Positions 2,200 to 63,850 of a DNA stretch of 64,000 nt are shown piece by piece; position 1 is the first letter of the stretch, and each line of letters opens with the position of its first letter. The notes below the pieces were generated by a model. That model did not search any database. It was given only the letters and a program-made list of their open reading frames with translations, and was not told the origin of the DNA. The DNA is from Protonemura montana (lineage: Eukaryota; Arthropoda; Insecta; Plecoptera; Nemouridae), in contig OX387612.1 in NCBI GenBank assembly GCA_947568835.1, positions 4,402,001-4,466,000 of the forward strand. Direction: 5' to 3'. A program made the translations under genes and the position numbers.

Positions 2200-2535
2200 G
2201 AAAGGGAACCACCGGCTTAATGTGCTCATTGCGAAGGACGGAACAACGCGAACAGGATTTCTCAACAAATCCATGCTGTCAAGAGGTTGATAAGCAAGGC
2301 GAGTGAAGTTGTTGTACTAACTTTCATCCCTCCAAACTCTCTCCCGAACAGAACTGGTCATGTGTATGATGGTCACCCATTCAATACCTGACCCAGCGCA
2401 GTGTTGCTTAATTTTCATCCCTCCAACCTCTCTCCCAAACAGAACTGGTCATGTGTATGATGGTCACCCATCCAATACCTGACTCAGCGCAGTGCTGCTA
2501 ACTTCGGTGATCTCATGAGAACTGAGTTCCGAACA
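2200..2535 (-). mobile_element. 5S-derived SINE, partial copy in a small PDZ-GEF intron
   Basis: Reading the minus strand, this has the end of the 5S-like head, two 91-bp internal-promoter units, then the SINE body (AACTTCACTCGCC, ATCAACCTCTTGACAGCATG) and stops near 2200 without the usual AATC tail. It fills most of the 482-bp intron between exons 2860-2570 and 2087-1953. The 5' end of the element is degraded into GGAACTCAGTTC. Confidence 0.85.
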
Positions 2536-2569
2536 CACCATCAAGAACGCATTGAAGCCGTCAACTCAC

Positions 2570-17925: not shown

Positions 17926-19734
17926 TATATACTATAAGACGCTACATGTCGTTTTTACAATGCGAAAAACAAAGCATTTTTTTGTAAATAAAAAAATAGG
18001 GCAATTATTTAATTTTGAATACAGTTGAAGCTTAAGATTTGTAAGCACATTACTAGCAGGTTTATGCCAGTGTGGTAACTACTTGGTATATCGGTAATGC
18101 GATACGTTGCGAAGCCATAAAGCTGTCGCTGTTCCCAACAGCAAGCCGTGTTAAATGACACGCGTGCTCGGCACATGTTTGACGTCGGTTACCTCGGAGG
18201 ATCCTACCGACCACGACCGCGACAGGAATCGTGATCGGCGATTCTTGCAGATGCTGCTCCGTCTCAGCGTGCAAGGCTCGTATGCGTATTTCAACATGTT
18301 CACTATACGTTGTCAGCGATTCAAATTAGAATAAAAGTCCTTTGAGAGGCTCGGTTTATATTCGAATAGCTTCTGGGTTAGTAATTGAAAAGAAAGTCAC
18401 TGTTTGGTTAAGGATGGTGATCAATAACTCGCCCATGTTTTATCTTGTCTTCAAGCTATTTCAACTCGAATCTTATAATCAAAAACATCTTGATTTCGAA
18501 CACACGTCACCGTTTATATATAACTTTAATTTTCCTAGAGGTTTTTTCCATAACACACACTTTTCCGATCAATTGCAATGGCATTAAGATTTTGACAAGT
18601 CAAACTACAGTTCTAAAAAATGCACAGACTACAAAATTACTTTTCTTTAGGTACAAATTACTCGGTAGGTGTTTTGAGTTCACATACGCGCACCAAACGG
18701 TGTTTTCACGGCCGGTTTTTGGTATTGTCGACAACATTTCGGGACTGTTCTCAACAACTTCACTAGAATGTCCTCAACGCCGACCGATCGACGACCCATG
18801 AGTCCGTTAAAATCAGCAAATGAGAACGTTTAGTCCAAGATTGTGCCATTCAAAACGTCAGGAAAGGTTTTTTCATTTGTTCTTATTGGGTCGTTAGTTT
18901 AGAAAAAGAATGCACTGAATTTCGGAGTTGACAATGGTTTTAAACGACAAAGCCAATAAACATTAGTTGAATGGTATTTGTTTTTGTAGCATAAATCGCA
19001 GTGATGTCAAGGGTAGTTTTCAGAAAATTATTATCAATTCTTGTAATATATCTTTTAGGTTTTCGAGGCACATTTGCAAATATCAAGTTCAAGCGCTTCT
19101 CATCTCTTATGAAAGATGACTCAAAGCGAGCGAAATTTACAGAAATCGTTCACGATATTGCTATAGAATCACAGAACGAGCGAGCGATAACTCGTTGAAG
19201 TTGAACGACTCGTTAAAAATATGAAATAATTGCTTCAAATCTTGAATCGAAAACGCCGTGATTCTGAATCTTATAACAATCGATCAAATTAGTCAACGCG
19301 AACTTTCTTGACAGCCAATTTCAAGATGAACCGATATCGGAAACTGATTATAAAAGGTTTCAGCGGTCGTTACTTCGATGTTGTGCAGTGGACTGGAATC
19401 GTAAGACTGGCAGGGAAATGATGCATTCGTCAAAGTCTCGGCGGCAACTTCCGTTGCTCAGTTCGAGCTGATAGCGAGTACCAGTGTGTAATCAGTTATT
19501 GTGTACGAAATGCCTACGCGCGAGCGGATCTTAGCTTTCGAAGAATTACACCTAGGAAATGGTGATTGATTCACGATAAAATTTGTCAGCCAGAGTGTTT
19601 TGTCAAAAGCGAGTTGGAATAATCAGAGGTGAAAAAAGAACCCTAATCATAAGAAGGAACTTACAATTTTAAAGCGCGAAGATCTTTTAGGTAGTAGCCG
19701 TATCACGAATACACTTTGTTTTCGAAAAAGGACC
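17926..19734. other. Giant-intron segment without recognised genes
   Basis: A GC-rich patch at 18140-18290 on the minus strand offers acceptor- and donor-like sites, but it does not match any segment expected between the flanking exons. Small ORFs at 18342-18801 and 19001-19198 show no recognisable domain. Confidence 0.5.
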
Positions 19735-19800
19735 AAAGTTCAGCAACACTGCGCTGCGTTCGGTAAATTGAATGGGTGACCATCATACGTGTACCTACAC
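19735..19800 (+). repeat. 5S-derived SINE fragment
   Basis: CAAAGTTCAGCAACACTGCG ... GAATGGGTGACCATCATACG is a decayed copy of the 5S internal-promoter unit. Confidence 0.65.
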
Positions 19801-19949: not shown

Positions 19950-20590
19950 AGAAATACATCAACGCTAAGCAAAGGACAGTCACTTGTATTCCACAAGGAA
20001 ATACGTTATCAAATCATAAGTGGCGTGCCACAAGGTGTTGGCGTCGGTCCTATCTCTGCTCCTCCTTTCTGTTCCCGTTTACCGGTTTCCTTGAATATTC
20101 TTACATTCATATTCCTTGCGGTCTAAAATCTTCTTTGCAATACCATCCAGGCAAACTCGAAATTATCATCCCTTCAGGCCGTCAAGGATAGGATTGACAT
20201 CCACAAGCACGGGTGCATCAAAAGACTAATGACTACCAACAATAAAATTACAACCACCTGCCCTGACATCGACATCCTTTCAGACTCCTTCATGACTTAC
20301 AACTACCGACTTGAACACTGCGATCAAACAGCTGCCCACGAAAACTTGGAAATATATCAAATATATTACCAACTGCAATCTCTTGTTGCGTGTTATGTTT
20401 TCAACTTAGCTTATGATTGTAATTGGCTGTGTTTTTCATCGTTAATGTTTTGATGTTACATTTTCACCATGTTAAATGTTTAATGTCCTGTTCTGTTCTG
20501 CAATGTCCCTGTATTGTTCTCATTTATTATATCACACTTGTGGACTTGCTTCCGTTATTTGATCAATAAATAATAAACAAATAAAAGAGA
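19950..20590 (+). mobile_element. Dead non-LTR retrotransposon fragment (reverse transcriptase relic)
   Basis: At 20019-20054 the plus strand reads SGVPQGVGVGPI, a decayed form of the SGVPQGSVLGP motif of LINE reverse transcriptases, preceded by YQII. Frames are broken on both sides, and the metal-binding YADD block is missing. The fragment ends with ATCAATAAATAATAAACAAA, an A-rich tail, immediately before a 54-bp satellite array. It is not functional. Confidence 0.55.
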
Positions 20591-20592
20591 GT

Positions 20593-21140
20593 ATACCAGC
20601 ACAAGGACTGTCCCCAGCATTGCTACAGTCTAGCCCGTGAGAGAAGATACCAGCACAAGGACTGTCCCTGCATTGCTACAGTCTAGCCAGTGAGAGAAGA
20701 TACCAGCACAAGGACTATCCCCTGCATTGCTACAGTCTAGCCCGTGAGAGAAGATACCAGCACAAGGACTGTCCCCAGCATTGCTACAGTCTAGCCCGTG
20801 AGAGAAGATACCAGCACAAGGACTGTCCCCTGCATTGCTACAGTCTAGCCCGTAAGAGAAGATACCAGCACAAGGACTGTCCCTGCATTACTACAGTCTA
20901 GCCCCTGAGAGATGATACCAGCACAAGGACTGTCCCCTGCATTGCTACAGTCTAGCCCGTAAGAGAAGATACCAGCACAAGGACTGTCCCAGCATTGCCA
21001 CAGTCTAGCCCGTGAGGGAAGATACCAGCACAAAGACTGTCCCCAGCATTGCTTCAGTCTAGCCCGTGAGAGAAGATACCAGCACAAGGACTGTCCCCTG
21101 CATTACTACAGTCTAGCCCGTAAGAGAAGATACCAGCACA
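20593..21140 (-). repeat. 54-bp tandem array (about 10 units)
   Basis: The plus strand repeats ATACCAGCACAAGGACTGTC, CCCTGCATTGCTACAGTC, TAGCCCGTGAGAGAAG with a period of 54 bp (53 where one C is lost). The same unit forms arrays at 33807-34488, 36455-36912, 47318-47861 and 52600-52756. Unlike those, this array abuts a LINE-like tail on the left and a pyrimidine-rich block on the right rather than the usual head. Confidence 0.93.
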
Positions 21141-23417: not shown

Positions 23418-23792
23418 ATAATGGTAGATTCAACGTTTGGTAGCCATGGAGATGCTGCGATCACCTGACAGAGCATCTCGATTCTGCTATCGTATGTTAC
23501 CACGGGTATATCATGGCCTAGCATAGGAGGTTCAATGGTAGATTCAACGTTTGGAAGCCATGGAGATGCTGAGATCGCCTGACAGAGCTTCTCAATTCTG
23601 CTATCTTATGTTACCACGGGTATATCATGGTCTAGCATAGGAGGTTCAATGGTAGATTCAACGTTTGGTAGCCATGGAGATGCTGAGATCACCTGACAGA
23701 GCATCTCGATTCTGCTATCTTATGTTACCACGGGTATATCATGGCCTAGCATAGGAGGTTCAATGGTAGATTCAACGTTTGGTAGCCACGGA
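23418..23792 (+). repeat. 114-bp tandem array, family A, copy 3
   Basis: About 3.3 units, same orientation as 1167-1680. Several units share the variant GATCACCTGACAGAGCATCT instead of GATCGCCTGACAGAGCTTCT, so this array has a private lineage history. Confidence 0.94.
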
Positions 23793-30011: not shown

Positions 30012-30465
30012 TAAGAACCGAACGGATTGGCGTGTTGGAAACACTGGTTCTCTAAGATCACCGAAGTTAAGCAACACTGCGTTGAGTCAAGTATTGGAAG
30101 GGTGGCCATCATACACATGACCAGTTCTGTTAGGGAGAGAGGTTAGAGGAATGAAAGTTAGTACAGCAAATCCATTCGCCTTGCTTATCAACCTCTTGAC
30201 AGCATGGATTTGTGGAGGAATCCTGTTGTTCGAGTTGTACTGTCCTTCGGAAGGGAGGTTAAGCCGATGGTTCTCTTGGTGTTCTTCGACAGGAGTAGAC
30301 TACGTGCCGGCACCGGGTTTCACTTCCTCCCTTCTAGGCTAGGTTAATCATCATCCTTAGCAATCACTCATTCACCGACGCCATTAGACCAGTGCCGTAT
30401 GGCCAAATGTCAGAACAGTGCGTCGTTAAACACCACAAATCATGATGTGTTAAGTCAATCAATTC
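30012..30465 (+). mobile_element. 5S-derived SINE, near-full copy with one promoter unit
   Basis: Order: 5S head (TTGGAAACACTGGTTCTCTA, GATCACCGAAGTTAAGCAAC), one C-box-like GGAAGGGTGGCCATC, spacer (CATGACCAGTTCTGTTAGGG), body (CTTGCTTATCAACCTCTTGA, GTGCCGGCACCGGGTTTC), conserved 3' part (CGACGCCATTAGACCAGTGC, GTGCGTCGTTAAACACCACA) and a short AATC tail. This is the simplest layout and probably the ancestral one. Confidence 0.92.
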
Positions 30466-33806: not shown

Positions 33807-34720
33807 GATACCAGGACAAGGACTGTCCCCTGCATTGCTACAGTCTAGCCCGTGAGAGAAGATACCAGCACAATGACTGTCCCCTGCATTGCTACAGTCT
33901 AGCCCGTGAGAGAAGATACCAGCAAGAGGACTGTCCCCTGCATTGCTACAGTCCAGCCCGTGAGAGAAGATACCAGCACAAGGACTGTCCCCAGCATTGC
34001 TACATTCTAGCCCGTGAGAGAAGATACCAGCACAAGGACTGTCCCCTGCATTGCTACAGTCTAGCCCGTGAGAGAAGATACCAGCACAAGGACTGTCCCC
34101 TGCATTGCTACAGTCCAGCCCGTGAGAGAAGATACCAGCACAAGGACTGTCCCTGCATTGCTACAGTCTAGCCCGTGAGAGAATATACCAGCACAAAGAC
34201 TGTCCCCTGCATTGCTACAGTCTAGCCCGTGAGAGAAGATACCAGCACAAGGACTGTCCCCTGCATTGCTACAGTCCAGCCCGTGAGAGAAGATACCAGC
34301 ACAAGGACTGTCCACAGCATTGCTACAGTCTAGCCCGTGAGAGAAGATACCAGCACAAGGACTGTCCCTGCATTGCTACAGTCTAGCCAGTGAGAGAAGA
34401 TACCAGCACAAGGACTGTCCCCTGCATTGCTACAGTCTAGCCCGTGAGAGAAGATACCAGCAAAAGGACTGTCCCCTGCATTGCTACCAACTCACGAATG
34501 AAATTATAGTTATTGGCGGAATTTAAAACTACTTTATGCATATGAAAAATAATTCCCAAAGTTCTTTGGTCAACATTTCTTATAACAAGTCTAAAAAACA
34601 AAAGACCTTGGCACGACAAAAGCTTTAGAGCAAAATAACGATAGTGAACACCAGCGGAGAAGATTTGAAGTGTTTTCAAAAATGACAGTTGGCCCGCATG
34701 TCACCTCCAAACGACAGGAC
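33807..34720 (-). mobile_element. Composite element: 54-bp array plus head
   Basis: A 54-bp array (33807-34488, about 12.5 units) passes at GCATTGCTACCAACTCACGA into a single-copy head that ends AAATGACAGTTGGCCCGCAT, GTCACCTCCAAACGAC. The array-head junction is the same in the copies at 36455 and 47100. It lies 70 bp from the exon at 34791-34866. Confidence 0.9.
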
Positions 34721-34866: not shown

Positions 34867-35069
34867 CTGAAACAGGCGAGACAAACAAGAACAGTTAGAG
34901 ATCAGGTCGAATAGTGGTTCACGGGGGAAAAGCATGAGTAGACATAATCACAAGTTTGGACTAGGACTTGGACAAGATTTCGCAATTTGGGCATGTGACA
35001 TGGTTAAGACTTCGTGAATCCTGTGGCGGCAGAAAGAACCCAGAAAAAAAATTCCTGGTTCCTCCCAAA
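34867..35069. other. Intron segment upstream of the CNB1 exon
   Basis: About 200 bp, no repeat recognised. Confidence 0.5.
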
Positions 35070-35330
35070 CATTCTCTGTCAAGAGGTTGATAAGGTAAGA
35101 GAGCGAAGCATAAAAAACTTAATCCGCGAAAAATCGTTCAAACTTGCCCGTGACCTGACACAGCGCAGGGTGGCTTACATATGGTGATCTCACAAGGACC
35201 GGTGTTTCCAAAACGTCAACCTTCCGGTGGTCACCCATCCAATAACTGACTCAGCAAAGTATTGCTTAACTTCGGCGATCTTTCAAGACCCAGAGTTTCC
35301 TAATCCAAAACCGTTCGGTAAATTAATTTG
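35070..35330 (-). mobile_element. 5S-derived SINE, rearranged partial copy
   Basis: On the minus strand it carries two 5S-like heads in a row (around 35320-35255 and 35225-35165) followed by a truncated body (TTATCAACCTCTTGACAGAG). Middle units are missing. Confidence 0.7.
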
Positions 35331-36198: not shown

Positions 36199-36454
36199 CT
36201 GTTTTTTTCGTATATTGAATTGAATGTTTTTGCATTTTGATTAGCGTGCACACGTAGTGTTTTTTGAATGCACGTCGATTTTTTGTTGTTTGTGCGGATG
36301 TTTTAGCGCCGAAGATTTCATGGTTGCGAGATTAGATCCGAGGCATTACGGTCAGATTTTGGCTAAAATATCAATGAAACCTGAACAAAACAGAAATCAC
36401 TTTTATGAATAAAGCTTCGACTACGTTAGCTGTCAGCATAACTGCCCCTGAAAG

Positions 36455-37145
36455 AAGAAACCAGCACAAGGACTGCCCCCTGCATTGTTACAGTCTAGCC
36501 CGTGAGAGAAGATACCAGCACAAGGACTGTCCCCTGCATTGCTACAGTCTAGCCCGTGAGAGAAGATACCAGCACAAGGACTGTCCCCTGCATTGCTACA
36601 GTCTAGCCCGTGAGAGAAGATACCAGCACAAGGACTGTCCCCTGCATTGCTACAGTCTAGCCTGTGAGAGAAGATACCAGCACAAGGACTGTCCCTGCAT
36701 TGCTACAGTCTAGCCTGTGAGAGAAGATACCAGCACAAGGACTGTCCCCTGCATTGTTACAGTCTAGCCCGTGAGAGAAGATACCAGCACAAGGACTGTC
36801 CCCTGCATTGCTAGAGTCTAGCCCGTGAGAGAATATACCAGCACAAAGATTGTCCCCAGCATTGCTACAGTCTAACCTGTGAGATACAAGGACTGTCCCC
36901 TGCATTGCTACCAACTCATTAATGGAATTTCAGTTCTGATTTTTGTGCCAGGATTTCAAAATACTGATTTTAACTGCAGAATAATTCCCAGGATTGTAAT
37001 AATTGAATGAAAAATTCTAAAAATAGCTCGAAAAAAAACACGCGATAAAAGCTAGAGAGCAAATGGAAAATAGCGGACATTGGCGGCGATAATTTGTAGT
37101 GTTTTTAAAAATGGCAGTTGACCCAAAACGACCGGTGGTGCCTAC
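36455..37145 (-). mobile_element. Composite element: 54-bp array plus head
   Basis: Array 36455-36912 (about 8.5 units), then GCATTGCTACCAACTCATTA and a head ending ATGGCAGTTGACCCAAAACG, ACCGGTGGTGCC. Same orientation as 33807-34720 and only 2 kb away, so the two could recombine. Confidence 0.9.
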
Positions 37146-37869: not shown

Positions 37870-38230
37870 TTAAAATAATTCTGAAAGACGCGCTGTTTTG
37901 ACAATGGGTCATCTGGTACTGGTATAATTGCGTCGGTGAATGAGTGAAAATGAGCCTTACTTAGCCTAGAAGGAATTAGGGGAAACCTGGTGCCGGCACG
38001 TAGCCTACTCCTGTCGAAGACCAAGGGGACCACCGGTTTAACGTTCCTTCCGAAGGACGTTACAACGCGAACAACAGGATTCCTCCACAAATCCATGCTG
38101 TCGAGAGGTTGATAAGCAAGGCGAACCTCTCTCCCGAACAGAACTGGTCATGTGTATGATGGTCACCCATCAAATACCTGACCCAGCGCAGTGTTGCTCA
38201 ACTTTCATCCCTCCAGCCTCTTTGCCAAAT
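37870..38230 (-). mobile_element. 5S-derived SINE, 5'-truncated
   Basis: The body and 3' part are complete (GACGCGCTGTTTTGACAATG at the 3' end, GTGCCGGCACGTAGCC, CCTTCCGAAGGACG); only one promoter unit remains and the 5S head is cut at TTTCATCCCTCCAGCC. Confidence 0.88.
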
Positions 38231-41639: not shown

Positions 41640-41860
41640 GCATAGCGTGTTGGAAACACCGTTCGTTGTGAAATCACCGAAGTTAAGCAACTCTGTGCTG
41701 GTTCAGATATTGAAATGGTGACCATCCGAATGGTTTGGCGTGTCGGAAACACCGGTTCTCTTGAGATCACCGAAGTTAAGCAACACTGCTCTGGTTCATG
41801 TATTGGATTGGTGACCAAAGAACTGTTTGTCGTGTTGGAAACGCCTGTCCTTGTATCTAT
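41640..41860 (+). repeat. Tandem 5S-like heads without SINE body
   Basis: Two and a half copies of a 5S-derived head in a row: GCGTGTTGGAAACACCG ... GAAGTTAAGCAACTCTGTGC ... ATTGAAATGGTGACCATCC, then GTTTGGCGTGTCGGAAACAC ... ACCGAAGTTAAGCAACACTG ... ATTGGTGACC, then TTGTCGTGTTGGAAACGCCT. No CATGACCAGTTCTG spacer or SINE body is present, so this is closer to 5S pseudogene dimers. Confidence 0.85.
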
Positions 41861-43835: not shown

Positions 43836-44249
43836 AATGTGTCCAGGACTAATTTGTTAATGTTACTCCAGAGAAGTCTTTCGTTTCAGCGGACAGAACG
43901 ATTTGAAGAGAAATTAAAAATCATCGTAGCGAACGGCAATCATAGCTACAACAACCTTAACTTGATGAACTGCTGGCACAGACTGGATTTCATTCGAGTT
44001 AATAAAAAAAGTTTTAACTAGTTTATCACTTCAAGTGTAAGAAAAGCAATGGCTGCATATTAACAGGAGCCGCCATTTAATCTAAATAGCGCAGGTCTGC
44101 AAACGAAATTGTCTTGTTTTTTTAAAGAAAAATAACAGTCAACATGGGCATGGACGAAACGGTTAGGTTGGCATGATTGGTAAGAACGATCAAACGCATT
44201 GCACATGCGTATTATAAGTTTGTTTGGGTGTTAACTAGATGGGGGACCA
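43836..44249. other. Unique AT-rich DNA
   Basis: A 60-codon ORF (43839-44021) has no recognisable domain. Confidence 0.45.
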
Positions 44250-44695
44250 CCGAACGGTTTGGTGTGTTGAAAACATCGGTTCTTATGAGATCACCGAAGT
44301 TAAGCACCACTGTGCTGAGTCAGGTATTGGATGGGTGACCATCATACACATGACCAGTTCTGTTCGGGAGAGAGGTTGGAGGGATGAAAGTTAGTACAGC
44401 AACTTCACTCGCCTTGCTTATCAACCTCTCGACGGCATGGATTTGTGGAGGAATCCTGTTGTTCGCGTTGTACCGTCCTTCGGAAGGGACGTTAAGCCGG
44501 TGGTCACCTTGGTCTTTGACAGAAACAGGCTACGTGTCGTCACTGGGTCCTCCCTTCTAGGCTAGGTTAAGTTCATCATTATCCACATCATCGTCCACTC
44601 ATTCACCGACGCCATTAGACCAGTGCCGCATGGCCAGATGTCAAAACAGTGCGTCGTTAAACACCACAAATAAATCAATCAACGAAGGTGTAATG
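44250..44695 (+). mobile_element. 5S-derived SINE, near-full copy with one promoter unit
   Basis: Complete order of head (GTGTTGAAAACATCGGTTCT, GATCACCGAAGTTAAGCACC), one C-box GATGGGTGACCATC, spacer, body (GTACCGTCCTTCGGAAGGGA) and 3' end with a short AATC tail (AAATAAATCAATCAACG). Confidence 0.92.
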
Positions 44696-44935: not shown

Positions 44936-45724
44936 GTTGCTATTAATCGCTAAAAAAATATCTTATGGTAAATTATACAGAATTCAGATAAACAGAAACG
45001 TTATATATTTTGAATAAAAATATTCAGAATCAAAGATACACTTTCGGAACAATAGCAACAAATGAAAAGACATCAAACGGGAACCGATCAGTTTTCTGAG
45101 CCGCAAGAAAACTTCCATCAAAGTTGATGCGATCAAATCAAATCTCTGCAGTCGTCCAATCTTTATTTATCTCTAGGTAATAGTTATGTGAAATCGCTGG
45201 ACATCGAAGCACAATCTTGTGAAAAGAGTATTTGGGCTTTCGACAACAACAACAACAAAAAAAAGCGGCCCCCAACCAAAAACCAATATATCTTTTGCCG
45301 ATTCAACCGTAAGCTAGATGTTCCTAGCTGAATAAATCTTAAAAAAACCAGTCCCTACCAATGCTTTATGTTTTCTCCCCTAAACTGGAAGCTTTCTTTG
45401 ACGATGACGCCCCACAAGAAAAAAAAACATGAAATACGAGAAAATTGCATTTTCAAAACGATTTTCCGAACGATTTACATTGAGACACAACTTTTCAGAG
45501 AAACTTGAAAATGACGGTACTAGCGACGAAATTCATAAATAAAATTTCAAAGATTTTGACAAGCGATGTCACAGGGAATCGGTGCCAGTGCAAGCTTTCT
45601 TCATTATATATTTACTCAGTTTCTTCTTTATCTGATTTCGAACAGATATTGAAAAGCTGAGCTTTTGTGCATTATTTTCAATTTCTTGTATTTTAACTTG
45701 CTTACTGTCATATAAATACCGAAC
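44936..45724. other. Unique AT-rich DNA
   Basis: No feature was recognised. Confidence 0.5.
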
Positions 45725-46235
45725 TGTTTACCGAGTTTTAATGTCCGGGTCTCGTTAGATCACCGAAGTTAAGCAACACTGCGCTAGGTCAGGTGTTGGA
45801 TGGGTGGCCATCATACACATGACCAGTTCTGTTCGGGAAGGAGGTTGGAGGGATGAAAGTTAATCAACACTGCGCTGGGTCAGGTATTGGATGGGTGACC
45901 ATCATACACATGACCAGTTCTGTTCGGGAGAGAGGTTGGAGGGATGAAAGTTAAGCAACACTGAGCTGGGTCAGGTATTGGATGGGTGACCAGCACACAC
46001 ATTACCAGTTCTGTTCGGGAGAGAGGTTGGAGGGATGAAAGTTAAGCAACACTGCTCTGAGTCAGGTATTGGATGGGTGACCATCATACACATGACCAGT
46101 TCTGTTCGGGAGAGAGATTCCACCTCTACCCTTCTCGACTAAATTAGGTTCATCACCCTATCATCACCGGCGCCATTAAACCAGTACCACATGACCCGTC
46201 ATCAAAATAATTCAATCAATCAATCAATATCCAAT
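45725..46235 (+). mobile_element. 5S-derived SINE with four promoter units
   Basis: A short head (GGGTCTCGTTAGATCACCGA) leads into four 91-bp units, each with TTAAGCAACACTG-type A-box, GGTCAGGTATTGGATGGGTG C-box and CAGTTCTGTTCGGGAGAGAG spacer. The body is then mostly deleted, resuming at CCACCTCTACCCTTCTCGAC and ending in CAATCAATCAATCAATAT. Confidence 0.93.
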
Positions 46236-47099: not shown

Positions 47100-47861
47100 G
47101 GAGGCGCCACCAGTAGTTTTGGGGTGACATGTGGGCCGACTGTCATTTTTAAAAACACTACAATTCATTTCCGTTGATGTCGGCCATATTTTTTAAGATC
47201 TTATTCGAGACGGTTTGCTTTTCAAGTTCATGTAAGATTTTCTTTACCGATAACAATCATGGGAATGTTTTTTCAAAAATAAATAGTAATTTTTTACGCA
47301 AATGTAATTCATGGATTGGTAGCAATGCTGGAGACAGTTCTTGTGCTGGTATCTTCTCTCACGGGCTAGACTGTAGCAATGCAGGGGACAGTCCTTGTGC
47401 TGGTATCTTCTCTCACGGGCTAGACTGTAGCAATGCAGGGGACAGTCCTTGTCCTGGTATCTTCTCTCACGGGCTAGCCTGTAGCAATGCAGGGGACAGT
47501 CCTTGTGCTGGTATCTTCTCTCACGGGCTAGACTGTAGCATTGCAGGGGACAGTTCTTGTGCTGGTATATTCTCTCACGGGCTAGACTGTAGCAATGCAG
47601 GGGACAGTCCTTGTGCTGGTATCTTCTCTCACGAGCTAGACTGTAGCAATGCAGGGACAGTCCTTGTGCTGGTATCTTCTCTCACGGGCTAGACTGTAGC
47701 AATGCAGGGGACAGTCCTTGTGCTGGTATCTTCTCTCACGGACTAGACTGTAGCAATGCTGGGGACAGTCCTTGTGCTGGTATCTTCTCTCACAGGCTAG
47801 ACTGTAGCAATGCAGGGGACAGTCCTTGTGCTGATATCTTCTCTCACGGGCTAGACTGTAA
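47100..47861 (+). mobile_element. Composite element: head plus 54-bp array
   Basis: The head starts GGCGCCACCAGTAGTTTTGG, GGTGACATGTGGGCCGACTG, includes GATGTCGGCCATATTTTT and meets the array at ATTCATGGATTGGTAGCAAT (47318). About 10 units follow to 47861. Orientation is opposite to the copies at 33807 and 36455. An open frame of 172 codons runs through the array because 54 is a multiple of three; it ends where one base is lost. Confidence 0.92.
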
Positions 47862-48349: not shown

Positions 48350-48900
48350 GATTGATTGTTGTGTTTTAACGACGCACTGTTTTGACAACTGGCCATGTGG
48401 CATTGGTCTAATGGCGTCGGTGAATGAGTGGATGATGATGATGAGGATGATGATGATGAACGTATCGTAAAGAAGGGAAGAGGGGAAACCCGGTGCCGAC
48501 ACGTAGCTTGTTCATCTCGAAGAACACCAAGAGGACCACCGGCTTAACACCGGCTTAACGTCCTTCCGAAGGACGGTACAACGTAAACAACAGGATTCCT
48601 CCACAAATCCATGCTGTCGAGAGGTTGATAAGCAAGGCGAGTGAAGTTGCTGTACTAACTTTCATCCCTCCAACCTCTCTCCCGAACAGAACTGGTCATG
48701 TGTATGATGGTCACCCATCCAATACCTGACCCAGCGCAGTGTTGCTTAACTTTCATCCCTCCAACCTCTCTCCCGAACAGAACTGGTCATGTGTATGATG
48801 GTCACCCATTCAATACCTGACCCAGCTCAGTGTAGCTCAACTTCGGTGATCTCACGAGGACCGGTGTTTCCAACACGCCAAACCGTTACGTTTACAGCAT
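48350..48900 (-). mobile_element. 5S-derived SINE, full copy with two promoter units
   Basis: On the minus strand: head (TTGGAAACACCGGTCCTCGT, GAGATCACCGAAGTTGAGCT), two 91-bp units, body and 3' part with GTCGTTAAAACACAAC. An ATCATCATC-rich segment lies near 48430-48460. One local duplication CACCGGCTTAA occurs at 48536-48560. Confidence 0.93.
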
Positions 48901-52364: not shown

Positions 52365-52756
52365 CGCTAAAGGCGCCAAAGATCCTTTTGGTATGCATTG
52401 TGGGCCAACCTCTCATTTAAAAAAACACTGCAAATAATCTTCGCTGAGGTCTGCCATTTTTCTTGATTTAAAGCTTGCCATGCAAACATGTTTTGTTTTT
52501 GCAGTTACGATAAGAATTGTTATAGCAGAAATAATTAGGATAATTCCCAGAAATAATAATCCGGTCAAATAAATTATTACTGAAATTTCATTCATGGTTG
52601 GTGGCAATCAGTCTTTGTGCTGGTGTCTTCTCTCACGGGCTAGACTGTAGCAATGCAGGGGGACAGTCCTTGTGCTGGTGTCTTCTCTCACGGGCTAGAC
52701 TGTAGCAATGCTGGGGACAGTCCTTGTGCTGGTATCTTCTCTCACGGGCTAGACAA
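52365..52756 (+). mobile_element. Composite element: head plus short 54-bp array
   Basis: Head from AAAGGCGCCAAAGATCCTTT, ATTGTGGGCCAACC and CTGAGGTCTGCCATTTTTCT to ATTCATGGTTGGTGGCAATC, then about 2.7 units of the 54-bp repeat (52600-52756). Same head-array junction as at 47318. Confidence 0.88.
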
Positions 52757-55451: not shown

Positions 55452-56089
55452 AGCATAGGAGGTTCAATGGTAGATTCAACGTTTGGTAGCCATGGTGATG
55501 CTGAGATCGCCTGACAGAGCTTCTTAATTCAGCTATCTTATGTTACCACGGGTATATCATGGCCTAGCATAGGAGGTTCAATGGTAGATTCAACGTTTGG
55601 TAGCCATGGAGATGCTGCGATCGCCTGACAGAGCTTCTCAATTCTGCTATCTTATGTTACCACGGGTATATCATGGCCTAGCATAGGAGGTTCAATGGTA
55701 GATTCAACGTTTGGTAGCCATGGAGATGCTGAGATCGCCTGACAGAGCTTCTCAGTTCTGCTTTCTTATGTTACCACAGGTATATCATGGCCTAGCATAG
55801 GAGGTTCAATGATAGATTCAACGTTTGGTAGCCATGGAGATGCTGAGATCGCCTGACAGAGCTTCTCAATTCTGCTATCTTATGTTACCACGGGTATATC
55901 ATGGCCTAGCATGGGAGGTTCAATGGTAGATTCAACGTTTGGTAGCCATGGAGAGGCTGAGATCGCCTGACAGAGCTTCTCAATTCTGCTATCTTATGTT
56001 ACCACGGGTATATCATGGCCTAGCATAGGAGGTTCAATGGTAGATTCAACGTTTGGTAGCCATGGAGATGCTGAGATCGCCTGACAGAG
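55452..56089 (+). repeat. 114-bp tandem array, family A, copy 4
   Basis: About 5.6 units in the same orientation as the arrays at 1167 and 23418. It is the longest and most uniform of the four arrays. Confidence 0.95.
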
Positions 56090-56629: not shown

Positions 56630-57225
56630 TTTTAAGGGGAGGATGGGAAACCCGGTGCCGGCACGTAGCCTACTACTGTCGAAGACCAAGGCGACCACCG
56701 GCTTAACGTCCCTTCCGAAGGATGGTATAACTCAAACAACAGGATTCCTACACAAATCCATGCTGTCAAGAGGTTGATAAGCAAGGCGAGTGAAGTTGCT
56801 GTACTAACTTTCATTCCTCCAGTCTCTCTCCCGAACAGAACTGGTCATGTGTATGATGGTCACCCATCCAATACCTGACCCAGCGCAGTGTTACTTAACT
56901 TGCATCCCTCTAACCTCTCTCCCGAACAGAACTGGTCATGTGTATGATGGTCACCCATCCAATACCTGACTCAGCGCAGTGTTGCTTAACTTTCATCCCT
57001 CCAACCTCTCTCCCAAACAGAACTGGTCATGTGTATGATGGTCACCCATCCAATACCTGACTCAGCGCAGTGTTGCTTAACTTTCATCCCTCCAACCTCC
57101 CTCCCGAACAGAACTGGTCATGTGTATGATGGTCACCCATCCAATACCTGACTCAACGCAGTGTCGCTTAACTTTGGAACTCATGAGAACCGGTTTTTCC
57201 AGCACGCAAAACCATTCGGTAACGC
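56630..57225 (-). mobile_element. 5S-derived SINE with four promoter units, 3'-truncated
   Basis: Minus strand: head (CGGTTCTCATGAGTTCCAAA variant), four 91-bp units, then a body ending at GGTGCCGGCACGTAGCC/GGGTTTCCCATCC; the 3' conserved part and tail are missing. Confidence 0.92.
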
Positions 57226-58109
57226 ATCATTTTTTCAAGTCAACTGTTCCACCACGCACTATGCCCCCCGTCACACTATTTTGGATATTTGATCGGTGTG
57301 ACCTACCGCAGTAGATGGCCCACCAACCGTGACCTTTGCCCTTTGCAAATTACAGAGTGGTAGGTCTGTGGCCAGCATGAAATATGTAACCAAATTGAAA
57401 TGGCTTGGCGGTATTAAAACCGTAGACGCAGGGGAACATGTTTTGAATTATTGAACGTCATGTTCACAGAGAGATGAATAGCAGGGGTACACCACAGCAT
57501 CATGGAGCGAATTGAATTAATGCACCTTTGATGGTTGGTGTCAGGTGGCAGCAGTGAAAAACTGTTGCGGTTTTTGAAGAAATTTGCATTCAAGTTTTAG
57601 TTTTTGTCTGTTCAGCTTTTTAAATATTTGTTTCACGTCAAGTCATTTTGACGAATTTTTAGCTAAATACGTGTCAAAATTGAATAAATGTCAGTTATAA
57701 TTAGCTATATTTTACTTTTTTTTCTGTTTTGGGACTTCGAATGTACATTTTAGTAAATACGAGTAGCGAAAAATGAAGATTTGTAATTAGTTTCCCAGGC
57801 CATTTAAAACGTATTCCAAAAACTCTGGTGTTCAATTAGCAATCATGCGGGTTTCGGTGCAAATCTTGGTATTTGTGAAGTATTGTAGAAAGATTCCACA
57901 ACGCAACGCAATCAATCAATTCTGACAGCGAACATGTTTCAGAGGTAAATATTGACTTGTACAAATGATTGAACATCATTAATAATTGTTACGCCTCAGT
58001 TTTAGAGATACACTAAGAACTAGCTAAACTAGAGGTTCATGAACACAATTTGAGTTCTGTTGTTAGAAAAGCGTAGCGATATATTTAAGAATGATAATTT
58101 TATTTATTT
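57226..58109. other. Unique AT-rich DNA
   Basis: No gene or repeat was recognised. Confidence 0.5.
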
Positions 58110-58725
58110 GTGATGTTTAACGACGCACTGTTTTGACATCTGGCCATGCGGCACTGGTCTAATGGCGTCGGTGAATGAGTGGATGATGACGAGGATGATT
58201 ATGAACCTGACCTAGCCTAGAAGGGAGGAGAGGCAACCCGGTGCCGACACGTAGGCTTTTAGTGTTGATGAGAACCAAGAAGACCACCGGCTTAACGTCC
58301 CTTCCGAAGGACGGTACAACTCGAACAGAAGGATTCCTCCACAAATCCATGCTGTCGAGAGGTTGATAAGCAAGGCGAGTGAAGTTGCTGTACTAACTTT
58401 TATCCTTCCGACCTCTCTCCCGAACAGAACTGGTCATGTGTATGATGGTCACCCATCCAATACCTGACACAGCACAGTGTTGCTTAACTTTCATCCCTCC
58501 AACCTCTCTCCCAAACAGAACTGGTCATGTGTATAATGGTCACCCATCCAATACCTGACTCAGCGCAGTGTTGCTTAACTTTCATCCCTCCAACCTCTCT
58601 CCCGAACAGAACTGGTCATGTGTATAATGGTCACCCATCCAATACCTGACTCAGCGCAGTGTTGCTAAACTTCGGTGATCTCATGAGAACCGGTGTTTCC
58701 AACACGTCAAACCGTTCGGTTTTCC
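58110..58725 (-). mobile_element. 5S-derived SINE with three promoter units, full length
   Basis: Minus strand: complete head (GACGTGTTGGAAACACCGGT, TCTCATGAGATCACCGAAGT), three units, body, CGACGCCATTAGACCAGTGC and GTGCGTCGTTAAACATCACA. Confidence 0.94.
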
Positions 58726-59464
58726 GATGATAAAATGTGAAGCTGATCTATTGCATAGGTCAAAGCAAAGCTGTTAAAATTCCCTAAAGTCGTGAATAAA
58801 GAGAGAAAGACACAAAAGGGCTCAAAAAGTTTACAACTACTCGATTTTGATTTATTCAACATCGTTGCAAAGTTTGGTAAAAAAATATCGAAAACTTTTG
58901 GCAGTACAATTCTAAAAAGTTTTTACAACATTTAAAACAAATCGTAAATGTTAAAAATTTTAAAAACTCTTCGACCGATTTTGCTGAAAAACGTAGGGTG
59001 TTTAGGTTGAAAACAAGAAAATGTGCTCTGCAAATATCGTTCAAATCGGAGGAGAAGTTTAGACGCTAGAGCGCGAACAAAGAAAAAACACAATCGATAT
59101 TTTGTTCTGGTGTTACTGAATTTTAAGATTTCGCTTCACTCGCTACGCTCATCGATACGGTATAACCTGAACAAAATTGCTTGATCAGTGCTGGAAATTC
59201 GGTCGCGTCACGAATAGCTCATTTGTAGGTCGTGGCTTTGGCTTGGTCAGGCATCGCCAAAATCGAATCGGGTGGAACAAATGGCGACCGCGGCGCTTGG
59301 AAAGTTTGCCCCTTAATCCAAGTTCAAATGTTTGAACAAGATTTCAAGAATAAGTGCTTTTTAATGCACTTTCAAGACAGTGAAATTGGAAATTAAAACA
59401 AATATTGATCAGGGTTAGCTTTTCTCCCTTCCCGACTGAGTTCATTTTGAACAGATTTATTGAT
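58726..59464. other. Unique DNA
   Basis: No gene or repeat was recognised. Confidence 0.5.
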
Positions 59465-60112
59465 TTGGGGAGTTTGACGAAGCACTTTTTTGCTGACGGG
59501 CCCTATCGCAGTGGTCTAATAGCATTGATTTATAAAATGATGTGAACCGATCCCTACTCTTAGCCTACTCCTGTCATAGAGCACCAAGGGGACCATCGAC
59601 TTAACGTCCCTTCCGAAGGACGGTACAACGCTAACAACAGAATTCCTCCACAAATCCATGCTGTCGAGAGGTTGATAAGCAAAGCGAATGAAGTTGCTGT
59701 ACTAACTTTCATCCCTCCAACCTCTCTCCCGAACAGAACTGGTCATGTGTATGATGGTCACCCATCTAATACCTGACCCAGCGCAGTTTTGCTTAACTTT
59801 CATCCCTCCAACCTCTCTCCCGAACAGAACTGGTCATGTGTATGATGGTCACACATCCAATACCTGACTCAGCGCAGTGTTGCTTAACTTTCATCCCTCC
59901 AACCTCTCTCCTGAACAGAACTGGTCATGTGTATGATGGTCACACATCCAATACCTGACTCAGCGCAGTGTTGCTTAACTTTCATCCCTCCAACCTCTCT
60001 CCCAAACAGAACTGGTCATGTGTATGATGGTCACCCATCCAATACCTGACCCAGCACAGTGTAACTTAACTTCAGTAATCTCTCAAGAACCGACGTTTCC
60101 AAAAGGCTAAAC
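59465..60112 (-). mobile_element. 5S-derived SINE with four promoter units, diverged body
   Basis: Minus strand: head (CGTCGGTTCTTGAGAGATTA), four 91-bp units, body with GTTAAGTCGATGGTCCCC and a decayed 3' end (CCACTGCGATAGGGCCCGTC). Confidence 0.9.
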
Positions 60113-60604: not shown

Positions 60605-61335
60605 CTGACGTTAGTGTAAGACCGGGTGATGATGAGGATGATGATGAAACAAATCAGGCCAAGAGCGGAGGAGGGAAAACTTGGTGCCGGCACGTAGTCT
60701 AGTCCTGTTGAAGACCAAGGGGACCAACGGCTTAACGTCACTTCCGAAGGACGGTGCAACGTGAACAGCAGGATTCCTCCACAAATCCATGCTGTCGAGA
60801 GGTTGAAAAACAAGGTGAGTGAAGTTGCACTAAATTTCATCCCTTCAATCTCTCTCCCGAACAGAACTGGTCATGTGTATGATGGTCACCCATCCAATAC
60901 CTGACTCAGCGCAGTGTTGCTTAACTTTCATTCCTCCAACCTATCTCCCGAACAGAACTGGTCATGTGTATGATGGTCACACATCCAATACCTGACCCAG
61001 CGCAGTGTTGCTTAACTTTCATCCCTCCAACCTCTCTCCCGAACAGAACTGGTCATGTGTATGATGGTCACCCATCCAATACCGGACTCAGCACAGTGTT
61101 GCTTAACTTTTATCCCTCTAACCTCTTTCCCGAACAGAACTGCTCATGTGTATGATGGTCACGCATCCAATACCTGACCCAGCGCAGTGTTGCTTAACTT
61201 TCATCCCTCCAACCTCTCTCCCGAACAGAACTGGTCATGTGTATGATGGTCACCCATCCAATACCTGACCCAGCGCAGTGTTGTTTAACTTCGGTGATCT
61301 CACAAGGATCGGTGTTTTTAACACACCAAACCATT
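60605..61335 (-). mobile_element. 5S-derived SINE with five promoter units
   Basis: Minus strand: head (GTGTTAAAAACACCGATCCT, TGTGAGATCACCGAAGTTAA), five 91-bp units and the body to GCACCAAGTTTTCCCTCC; the 3' conserved part is lost. Confidence 0.93.
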
Positions 61336-61879
61336 CAATTGGAGCTATGAACCATATTAAAAAATAAACACATTGGTTGACCTGTACCGACCCCAGTTTT
61401 CACCGAGCTGCTTTCATCTCGAATCATTACCATCCGTCATAACAACTGCAATCATTTAATTGATTAGATCGCGATGCTGTGATCACTCGCATTTTTCAAT
61501 TCTTTTCTGACTGAAAGAATGCCAAGGAAATGCACAGATCAAGTTATAAGACGTCAATGTGAAAGTGAACAATCGACGAGCAGACAAACAATAGTGAATT
61601 ACAGATAATGAATCCGTATACTTTCAAAAGAATGTTTCGTCTTTACAATAAACAATCAATTAATGAAATCTAGATCAAAGGCAAATTGAATTTATGGAAT
61701 CATATCAGTGTAAAGTGAATGCAAACACAAAAAGGTTCCAATTTTTAAGGTATTTCTTAACGGATTTTCAAAAGTCAATATTTACCGTTAAAAATGTTAG
61801 CTTTCAGATTTATTTGCTTGGGCTGCGTTGTCAAATTTACATACATTGCATTGTAATTATTTTTCTCGGTGTTGACCTC
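61336..61879. other. Unique AT-rich DNA
   Basis: No feature was recognised. Confidence 0.5.
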
Positions 61880-62974: not shown

Positions 62975-63850
62975 TACACATGACCAGTTCTATTCGGGAG
63001 AGAGGTTGGAGGGATGAAAGTTAAGCAACACTGTGCTGGGTCAGGTATTGGATGGGAGGCCATCATACACATGACCAGTTCTGTTCGGGAGAGAGGTTGG
63101 AGGGATGAAAGTTAAGCAACACTGTGCTGGGTCAGGTATTGGATGGGAGGCCATCATACACATGACCAGTTCTGTTCGGGAGAGAGGTTGGAGGGATGAA
63201 AGTTAAGCAACACTGTGCTGGGTCAGGTATTGGATGGGAGGCCATCATACACATGACCAGTTCTGTTCGGGAGAGAGGTTGGAGGGATTAAAGTTAAGCA
63301 ACACTGCGCTGGGTCAGGTATTGGATGGGTGACCATCATACACATGACCAGTTCTGTTCGGGAGAGAGGTTGGAGGGATGAAAGTTAAGCAACACTGCGC
63401 TGGGTCAGGTATTGGATGGGTGACCATCATACACATGACCAGTTCTGTTCGGGAGAGAGGTTGGAGGGATGAAAGTTTAGCAACACTGTGCTGGGTCAGG
63501 TATTGGATGGGAGGCCATCATACACATGCCCAGTTCTGTTCGGGAGAGAGGTTGGAGGGATGAAAGTTAGTACAGCAACTTCACTCGCCTTGCTTATCAA
63601 CCTCTCGACAGCATGAATTTGTGAAGGAATCCTGTTGTTCGAGTTGTACCGTCCTTCGGAAGGGACGTTAAGCCAGTGGTCCACTTGGTGCTCTCCAACA
63701 GAAGAAGCCTGCGTGCCGGCACCGGGTTTCCCCTCTCACTTCTAGACTAGGCTAGGTTCATCATCATCCTATCATTAACCGACACCTTAAAATCTGCGCC
63801 ACATGACGCGTTGTCAAAAAAGTGCGTCGTTAAACACCACAAATCAAAAA
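62975..63850 (+). mobile_element. 5S-derived SINE with six promoter units, headless
   Basis: It starts inside a spacer (ACACATGACCAGTTCTATTC), carries six 91-bp units starting at 63023, 63114 and so on, then a complete body (CTTGCTTATCAACCTCTCGA, CCGTCCTTCGGAAGGGACGT, GTGCCGGCACCGGGTTTC) and 3' end (GTGCGTCGTTAAACACCACA). The true 5S head is missing. Some units share the variant GGATGGGAGGCCATC, showing recent unit-by-unit spread. Confidence 0.95.

Follow-up and report, generated by a model that had tools for sequence, protein, structure and literature searches.

According to the accounts in PMC10886601 and PMC8010984, SINE3-type elements such as HaSE3, PxSE4 and PxSE5 consist of a 5S-derived head containing the A box, the intermediate element (IE) and the C box, followed by a body and a 3' tail; for PxSE4 and PxSE5, 4415 and 1952 copies are given. 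Minisatellites originating from other SINEs were also described, namely Alu-derived minisatellites with short direct repeats at their borders (reported by Jurka and Gentles 2006, according to PMC3389668) and the B1 VNTR of the mouse, which is listed as a SINE-derived minisatellite (Bois 1998, in PMC9659126). For human tandem repeats derived from transposable elements, PMC3389668 reports no obvious genomic hotspots. Furthermore, Hydromantes Hy/Pol III and Xenopus satellite 1 are listed as tandem repeats originating from the small-RNA-like head of a SINE-like element (PMC9659126). A 5S promoter is also found in Cassandra, a retroelement whose tandem arrays were attributed to recombination (PMC7215508), and in the LTR element Ajax, which generates 5-bp target-site duplications (PMC10886601).

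The SINE family analyzed here resembles HaSE3, PxSE4 and PxSE5 in its 5S-derived head, body and 3' tail. Unlike these elements, as far as their descriptions go, it contains an internal array of promoter-spacer units ranging from 1 to >40. No 5S SINE with internal tandem units was recognized in the open-licence literature searched, to the extent of what those sources present. Like the Alu and B1 minisatellites, the present family shows part of a SINE in tandem, and in the Alu case short direct repeats form the borders as well; in contrast to what is related for both, one segment has been expanded here in very many copies, according to chromosomal zone. The Hydromantes and Xenopus repeats are tRNA-related and appear in their source as satellites, not as arrays within single insertions. 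Cassandra and Ajax are LTR elements, and the Cassandra array unit is described as LTR plus internal domain.

The window, i.e., the whole stretch of 64,000 nucleotides under analysis, represents positions 4402001–4466000 of contig C15 of Protonemura montana, and the genome searched comprises 258.5 Mb in 34 contigs. By means of a profile aligner, the SINE family of the window was parsed into the modules H-P-S-B, with a head derived from 5S rRNA. The head H (48 bp) occupies the place of 5S nt 1–48 and the promoter module P (48 bp) corresponds to 5S nt 49–92, followed by the spacer S (43 bp) and the body B (~300 bp) with an (ATCA)n tail. The repeated unit P+S accordingly measures 91 bp, of which 48 bp are 5S promoter and 43 bp non-5S spacer. 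Compared with the 5S gene of the host genome itself, P aligned to nt 49–92 with a score of 51 (best of 300 shuffles: 23), and H+P aligned to nt 17–92 with a score of 95 (maximum in 300 shuffles: 24). The spacer S reached a score of 14 against host 5S, which is below the shuffle maximum of 20, and the body B gave no alignment to host 5S above shuffles. These alignments of P and H+P confirm the 5S origin and the A/IE/C region per unit proposed in the first-pass annotation; of the alignment of the unit to 5S nt ~45–100 named there as support, the part formed by P at nt 49–92 stands, whereas the spacer is not part of it. The region of A box, IE and C box, located at positions within 5S that we take to be theirs, is present in every consensus unit. 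As in SINE3 elements, the head is 5S-derived with A box, IE and C box, and an internal Pol III terminator is missing, the stop signal TTTT being absent from the one-unit sequence.

Searches with Rfam revealed seven 5S_rRNA matches in the window with 39–55 bits. Since the best 5S genes of the genome score ~117 bits, the matches in the window represent SINE heads or 5S-derived pieces and not 5S genes. C11 begins with a repeated block of ~9.5 kb (C11:70–105743) containing host 5S genes, three per block in mixed orientation; others were observed on C23 and at the beginning of C15.

According to the profile parse, ten insertions in the window carry 1, 1, 2, 2, 3, 4, 4, 4, 5 and 6 units, and fragments are present in addition. 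The copies and related pieces are as follows; assignments are based on the parse unless indicated otherwise.

2202..2540, minus strand: SINE with partial head, two units and truncated body
19732..19788, plus strand: lone promoter fragment P
30016..30442, plus strand: SINE with head, one unit and body, flanked by the target-site duplication TGACGTGTTAAG/TGATGTGTTAAG
35059..35319, minus strand: tandem 5S heads (H-P-H-P) and a short, degraded piece of body
37884..38229, minus strand: truncated SINE consisting of partial S, P, partial S and body
41645..41851, plus strand: tandem 5S heads H-P-H-P-H with a 93-bp period and without S (TRF, Rfam, parse)
44249..44681, plus strand: SINE with head, one unit and body; a 5S-like remnant, recognized by eye, lies immediately upstream
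45718..46207, plus strand: SINE with head and four units, body mostly missing
48350..48892, minus strand: SINE with head, two units and body (parse, Rfam)
56637..57220, minus strand: SINE with head, four units and truncated body
58099..58721, minus strand: SINE with head, three units and body (parse; Rfam 5S_rRNA match of 54.7 bits covering head and first unit)
59454..60112, minus strand: SINE with head, four units and body, 3' part diverged
60628..61341, minus strand: SINE with head, five units and body, 3' part not recognized
62975..63569, plus strand: array of the copy flagged in the first-pass annotation, six S-P units of 91 bp each plus a last S, no 5' head
63564..63847, plus strand: body B of the flagged copy, including the 3' end (parse; BLAST to other bodies)

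Tandem Repeats Finder (TRF) reported the 91-bp array at 62975–63569 with 6.5 copies (97% matches) and additional arrays of this period at 2318, 45766, 48656, 56805, 58394, 59703 and 60831. The unit numbers given originally (1, 1, 2, 3, 4, 4, 4, 5 and 6) were correct regarding the variation among insertions; one further two-unit copy has to be added, resulting in ten insertions. The statement that the head stays single was not upheld, as tandem 5S heads occur at 41645–41851 and 35059–35319 and also at loci L014, L024 and L025. Such heads (H-P-H-P, ~93 bp, without spacer) represent a second route by which the 5S part is multiplied. In the flagged copy, the C box is altered (GGGAGGCC for GGGTGACC) in units 1–3 and 6, and units 4–5 show the usual form. 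For this copy (62975–63847), an Rfam search of the copy alone returned no match and the search for target-site duplications gave nothing above control level. Because it lacks both a head and a duplication above control, it is regarded as 5'-incomplete and is not the best exemplar; better ones are the copy at 58099–58721, with three units and full head and body, and the one at 30016–30442, with one unit and a duplication.

The window is also dense in tandem repeats of several families. Arrays of a 54-bp unit, belonging to another family, are located at 20586–21140, 33807–34487, 36444–36884, 47319–47860 and 52609–52754, and 114-bp arrays of a third family, perhaps residing within dispersed repeats, at 1183–1679, 23420–23792 and 55452–56089. 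Open reading frames of the window presumably resemble a RapGEF.

Target-site duplications exceeding the 95% level of 400 random pairings were detected for 28 of 58 sampled insertions with both ends readable, identifying the element as a retroposon; this SINE3 feature, and the duplications expected by the first-pass annotation, were thereby found. Among the duplications, 24 of 28 comprise 9–14 matching bases, up to three of which may belong to the element, and the others 7, 15, 15 and 17. An assignment to Cassandra/Ajax-like TRIM elements with 5S is not supported by this length distribution, given that 5-bp duplications are reported for Ajax in PMC10886601. Within the group of copies starting at the head, duplications accompany 11 of 16 with one unit (or none) and 12 of 24 with several units.

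A start of headless copies at an inner transcription start was considered and rejected. Only two of the 58 insertions begin at S position 1, namely the flagged copy and L005, whose duplication is a mere TTC run, so ordinary 5' truncation is sufficient. L060, a copy without P, also starts near S position 1. A cluster of 5' ends was noticed elsewhere: six of the 58 (L004, L010, L037, L038, L053 and L003) begin in the last nine bases of H or at P.

Genome-wide abundances were determined with short tags allowing ≤3 mismatches. A body tag of 28 bases was counted 11,784 times, the S-B junction marking element ends 9,584 times, and the S-P junction, which exists solely in arrays and represents extra units, 26,835 times, corresponding to ~2.8 extra units per element end (S-P relative to S-B tags). 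The longest array observed, L069, contains at least 46 units, the stretch ending within the array.

Unit number follows the chromosomal zone. Insertions on contig C1 were sampled in coordinate order by an exact body tag, blind to unit number, yielding 30 loci at 0.1–1.5 Mb and 20 at 1.7–10.8 Mb (51 rows); rows with bodies of <240 columns were dropped for the Fisher test and the tree (51 to 48), and L014 with its 5S dimer head was counted as one unit in the Fisher data. Multi-unit copies account for 25 of 30 rows below 2 Mb versus 2 of 18 at 2.6–10.8 Mb (Fisher p = 1.6e-6, with the 2 Mb split picked after the data were seen). Both interior multi-unit rows belong to the L065 pair, which has one common 5' flank. 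The 18 interior rows, showing body identities of 0.87–0.98, comprise 14 with one unit, two truncated copies with none, and the L065 pair with three and five units. Body identity does not differ between the end zone and the interior of C1 (p = 0.30).

Exact tags along C1 gave, among the matches listed, 43 S-P junctions in 16 arrays and 12 S-B junctions at 0–2.5 Mb, one S-P and 23 S-B at 2.5–19 Mb, 30 S-P in nine arrays and 13 S-B at 19–24.5 Mb, five S-P in three arrays and 11 S-B at 24.5–28.7 Mb, and 21 S-P in ten arrays and 11 S-B at 28.7–29.6 Mb. Genome-wide, 35 of the best 40 of 6026 candidates for a six-unit query are located ≤2.5 Mb from a contig end, compared with five of the best 40 of 1873 candidates for a one-unit query; 22% would be expected under uniform placement in both cases. 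These placements refer to the first 40 rows out of 88 and 51, respectively, the remainder being further pieces. Moreover, of 67 arrays carrying a rare variant of the S-P junction on six large contigs, 61 lie ≤5 Mb from an end (uniform expectation 38.5%). The head tag H-P is likewise enriched near ends (18 of 25 ≤5 Mb, two neighbours on C3 being taken as one), and the comparison of arrays with heads gave p = 0.038 and 0.008. These counts refer to the completely listed contigs, covering 86 of 223 S-P and 25 of 52 H-P matches. Exceptions to the zonal rule are the arrays inside C1 at 19–24.5 Mb and one-unit copies at 26–29 Mb of C16 (29.6 Mb). Contig C16 accounts for 13 of the 40 top matches of the one-unit SINE, 11 of them at 26–29 Mb, as if well-kept copies gathered there.

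Contig ends are not all proven chromosome ends, since terminal repeats, (TTAGG)n or (TTTGG)n, were found at five of the 20 ends examined, three others being N. The repeat (TTAGG)n was observed at the end of C12 (L095) and the start of C16 (L100), and (TTTGG)n at the ends of C1 (L085) and C11 (L103) and the start of C13 (L102).

The zonal effect is wider than the SINE, as an unrelated 54-bp array (window 33807–34487) is similarly distributed. The best 39 of 603 candidates for this array, merged by hand, correspond to 38 loci, 22 of which are spread along both C14 and C15 (13 Mb each) and 16 of which are mostly a few Mb from the ends of larger contigs. In total, 34 of these 38 best-scoring loci are ≤4.5 Mb from an end, a weak criterion on contigs of 13 Mb such as C14 and C15. 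On C1, tandem repeats with a period ≥15 occupy 10.7% of the bases around 30 end-zone loci versus 1.3% around 17 interior loci when the SINE is masked; tested locus by locus, the excess does not reach significance (p = 0.068; any such repeat present at 17 of 30 versus 7 of 17 loci, p = 0.37). Flank GC content amounts to 0.439 in the end zone versus 0.400 in the interior (p = 0.007). L025, L027 and L030 were omitted from the flank comparison to avoid overlap, although L030 would not have required it. A signature of GC-biased conversion, as expected under high recombination, is absent from the SINE bodies, and the trend is opposite: the ratio of strong-to-weak to weak-to-strong rates is 3.4 in the end zone and 1.7 in the interior (p = 6e-4), calculated relative to a majority consensus dominated by end-zone copies. 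GC-biased gene conversion was accordingly dropped as support for recombination.

Based on these results, it is probable that the arrays are minisatellites which grew after insertion in expansion-prone zones, inside a SINE3-type element. A 5S-rRNA-headed SINE of this type would have spread genome-wide mostly as the one-unit form H-P-S-B. In certain zones, mostly located in the few outermost Mb of large contigs or extending widely along the small contigs C14 and C15, slippage or repair between short repeats would then have duplicated P+S after insertion, and unequal exchange among the 91-bp copies may have led to arrays of 2 to >40 units. An array formed by post-insertion duplication and unequal exchange would amount to a minisatellite that originated within a SINE, its additional 5S promoters being by-products of the positions of the seed repeats. 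We infer that change ran from one unit to many after insertion, that a 6-bp repeat served as seed, and that meiotic recombination or break repair may have been the driver.

Haber and Louis in 1998 and Taylor and Breden in 2000, both cited in PMC3389668, reportedly proposed that minisatellites arise between short direct repeats, and the borders observed here fit this proposal. P+S in the one-unit form is bordered by two AAGTTA motifs, one at the start of P and one at the start of B, with a spacing of 91. At L013 (positions 1–1335), a 15-bp segment between two TGACCA motifs, located at the end of P and the start of S with a spacing of 15, was expanded to 89 copies; this is the sole array of its kind among 103 loci examined. 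Direct-repeat borders as assumed in the minisatellite model for transposable elements were thus found for both arrays. Direct repeats are common by chance, however, 17 of ≥6 bp being present in the one-unit form compared with 11 expected by shuffling, so a seed of this sort is not special. The start of B (AAGTTA-GTAC-AGCAAC) is similar to that of P apart from a 4-bp insert, so a dimer may have been the origin of the one-unit form itself.

Turnover of units within an insertion, as claimed in the first-pass annotation, was evident. With long arrays left out, the nearest unit comes from a unit's own element in 25.6% of cases (251 units) versus 2.2% expected, and rare unit variants recur inside one element in 13.3% versus 2.0% expected (6.6-fold). 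Identity of units per element is 0.950 within arrays versus 0.943 between arrays, and the within-array distance divided by twice the distance from the consensus is 0.82 (36 arrays). Units within an array are therefore nearly as diverged as those of different arrays, implying early growth of the arrays, their inheritance, or an exchange of units. Had the arrays grown in place recently, their units should be almost identical, contrary to the divergence seen. Column 22 (G/A) is mixed inside many arrays and mostly A in interior single copies. The overlapping loci L026 and L027 are both included in the identity comparison and the column-22 data, and L027 was removed for the analyses of turnover and box conservation.

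The main rival of growth in place is that multi-unit source elements carried the array in their RNA, retroposition copied it, and little changed afterwards, which we regard as possible and clearly the less likely course. Such behaviour is familiar from SVA, whose VNTR array forms part of the RNA and is propagated with it by retroposition, and the 5' monomers of mouse L1 are likewise variable tandem promoter units inside a retroposon. The present family resembles SVA and L1 monomers in having variable tandem units within a retroposon; in SVA and L1 the array belongs to the mobile source, whereas most sampled interior C1 copies of the present family have one unit. The near-equality of unit divergence within and between arrays speaks for multi-unit sources, as do the target-site duplications of the 12 multi-unit copies starting at the head and the case of L018, which begins at S position 5, has seven units and shows a 14-base mismatch-free duplication. 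Zone labels are also clustered on the body tree, with 10 changes versus 15.4 after shuffling (0 of 500 shuffles gave so few), and the tree test does not reject a single interior group (p-AU 0.136). The tree, comprising the 48 rows plus eight bodies from six-unit-query loci that were left out of the Fisher test, is poorly resolved and too weak to decide against this rival: phylogenetically independent pairs number 10 on the unsupported best tree and one on supported branches. Bodies nearest to the module sequence, with an identity of 0.98, are those of L024, L052 and L065+; they have two, one and three units, and two of the three being multi-unit counts against growth in place. In favour of growth in place, L052 (C1, 2.63 Mb) combines a zero end branch in the body tree with one unit and a 14-base mismatch-free duplication match.

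Against multi-unit sources, interior C1 copies of similar body identity nearly all have one unit, and an RNA would be blind to the zone in which it lands. Furthermore, no near-fixed variants separating first, second and last units were found, and at least three rare variants over two neighbouring units are shared between insertions only in the long arrays L069–L071. Further points for growth in place concern exchange: L070 on C5 and L071 on C11 agree at 98.9% over a stretch of 3.7 kb that extends into the flank, and on C12 L069 has the array in common with both, followed by 14 further units before the body. The members of the L065 pair have a common 5' flank and head, three and five units, and different 3' sides, a pattern as after exchange between two copies.

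Growth in place also has to be weighed against selection of the extra 5S promoter units for more starts, stronger Pol III transcription or TFIIIA binding, which we consider improbable. The A, IE and C region of each consensus unit, the 26,835 S-P junctions and the missing TTTT stop in the one-unit sequence would be in line with such selection. Across 386 units, excluding CpG sites and column 22, which is polymorphic, the box columns are not better conserved than the rest: divergence from the consensus is 2.0% for A, 2.3% for IE, 3.0% for C and 2.1% for other columns (p = 0.33). In addition, the flagged copy has a changed C box in four of six units, arrays are bound to zones, the unrelated 54-bp array shows a similar pattern, and 5' ends do not pile up at the predicted inner start. 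The first-pass interpretation of promoter amplification as a functional architecture is not supported by these results: unit number depends on the zone, the boxes are no more conserved, and L013 expanded another piece of the element. The presence of the boxes is the one point in favour of a functional promoter array here. Carried further, the promoter ladders would bind TFIIIA and Pol III at each unit, initiate several RNAs that retropose, and turn the ~26,800 extra units into a regulated Pol III or TFIIIA-binding layer in certain zones, a scenario judged quite improbable.

It is very doubtful that insertions arrive with several units and that interior copies lose them: the similarity between the starts of B and P would allow a dimeric ancestor of the one-unit form, but 14 of 18 interior rows have exactly one unit at body identities of 0.87–0.98. 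Spread of a satellite by segmental duplication of a few loci, an option named in the first-pass annotation, is hardly credible, for although L069, L070 and L071 have long arrays in common (two of them with flank), and common 5' flanks occur in the L065 pair and, judged by eye, in second copies within L061 and L068, it is contradicted for most sampled copies by the 28 of 58 insertions with their own target-site duplications above the 95% control, and printed flanks mostly differ by eye.

The genome of P. montana contains about ten thousand near-identical insertions, each with an expandable 91-bp segment. If growth in place is true, these insertions would be natural reporters of tandem DNA expansion, their unit number would serve as a map of regional instability (possibly of recombination) where a genetic map is lacking, and they would provide many parallel tests of minisatellite birth from short direct repeats. 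An internally repeated retroposon promoter need not be an adaptation of the retroposon.
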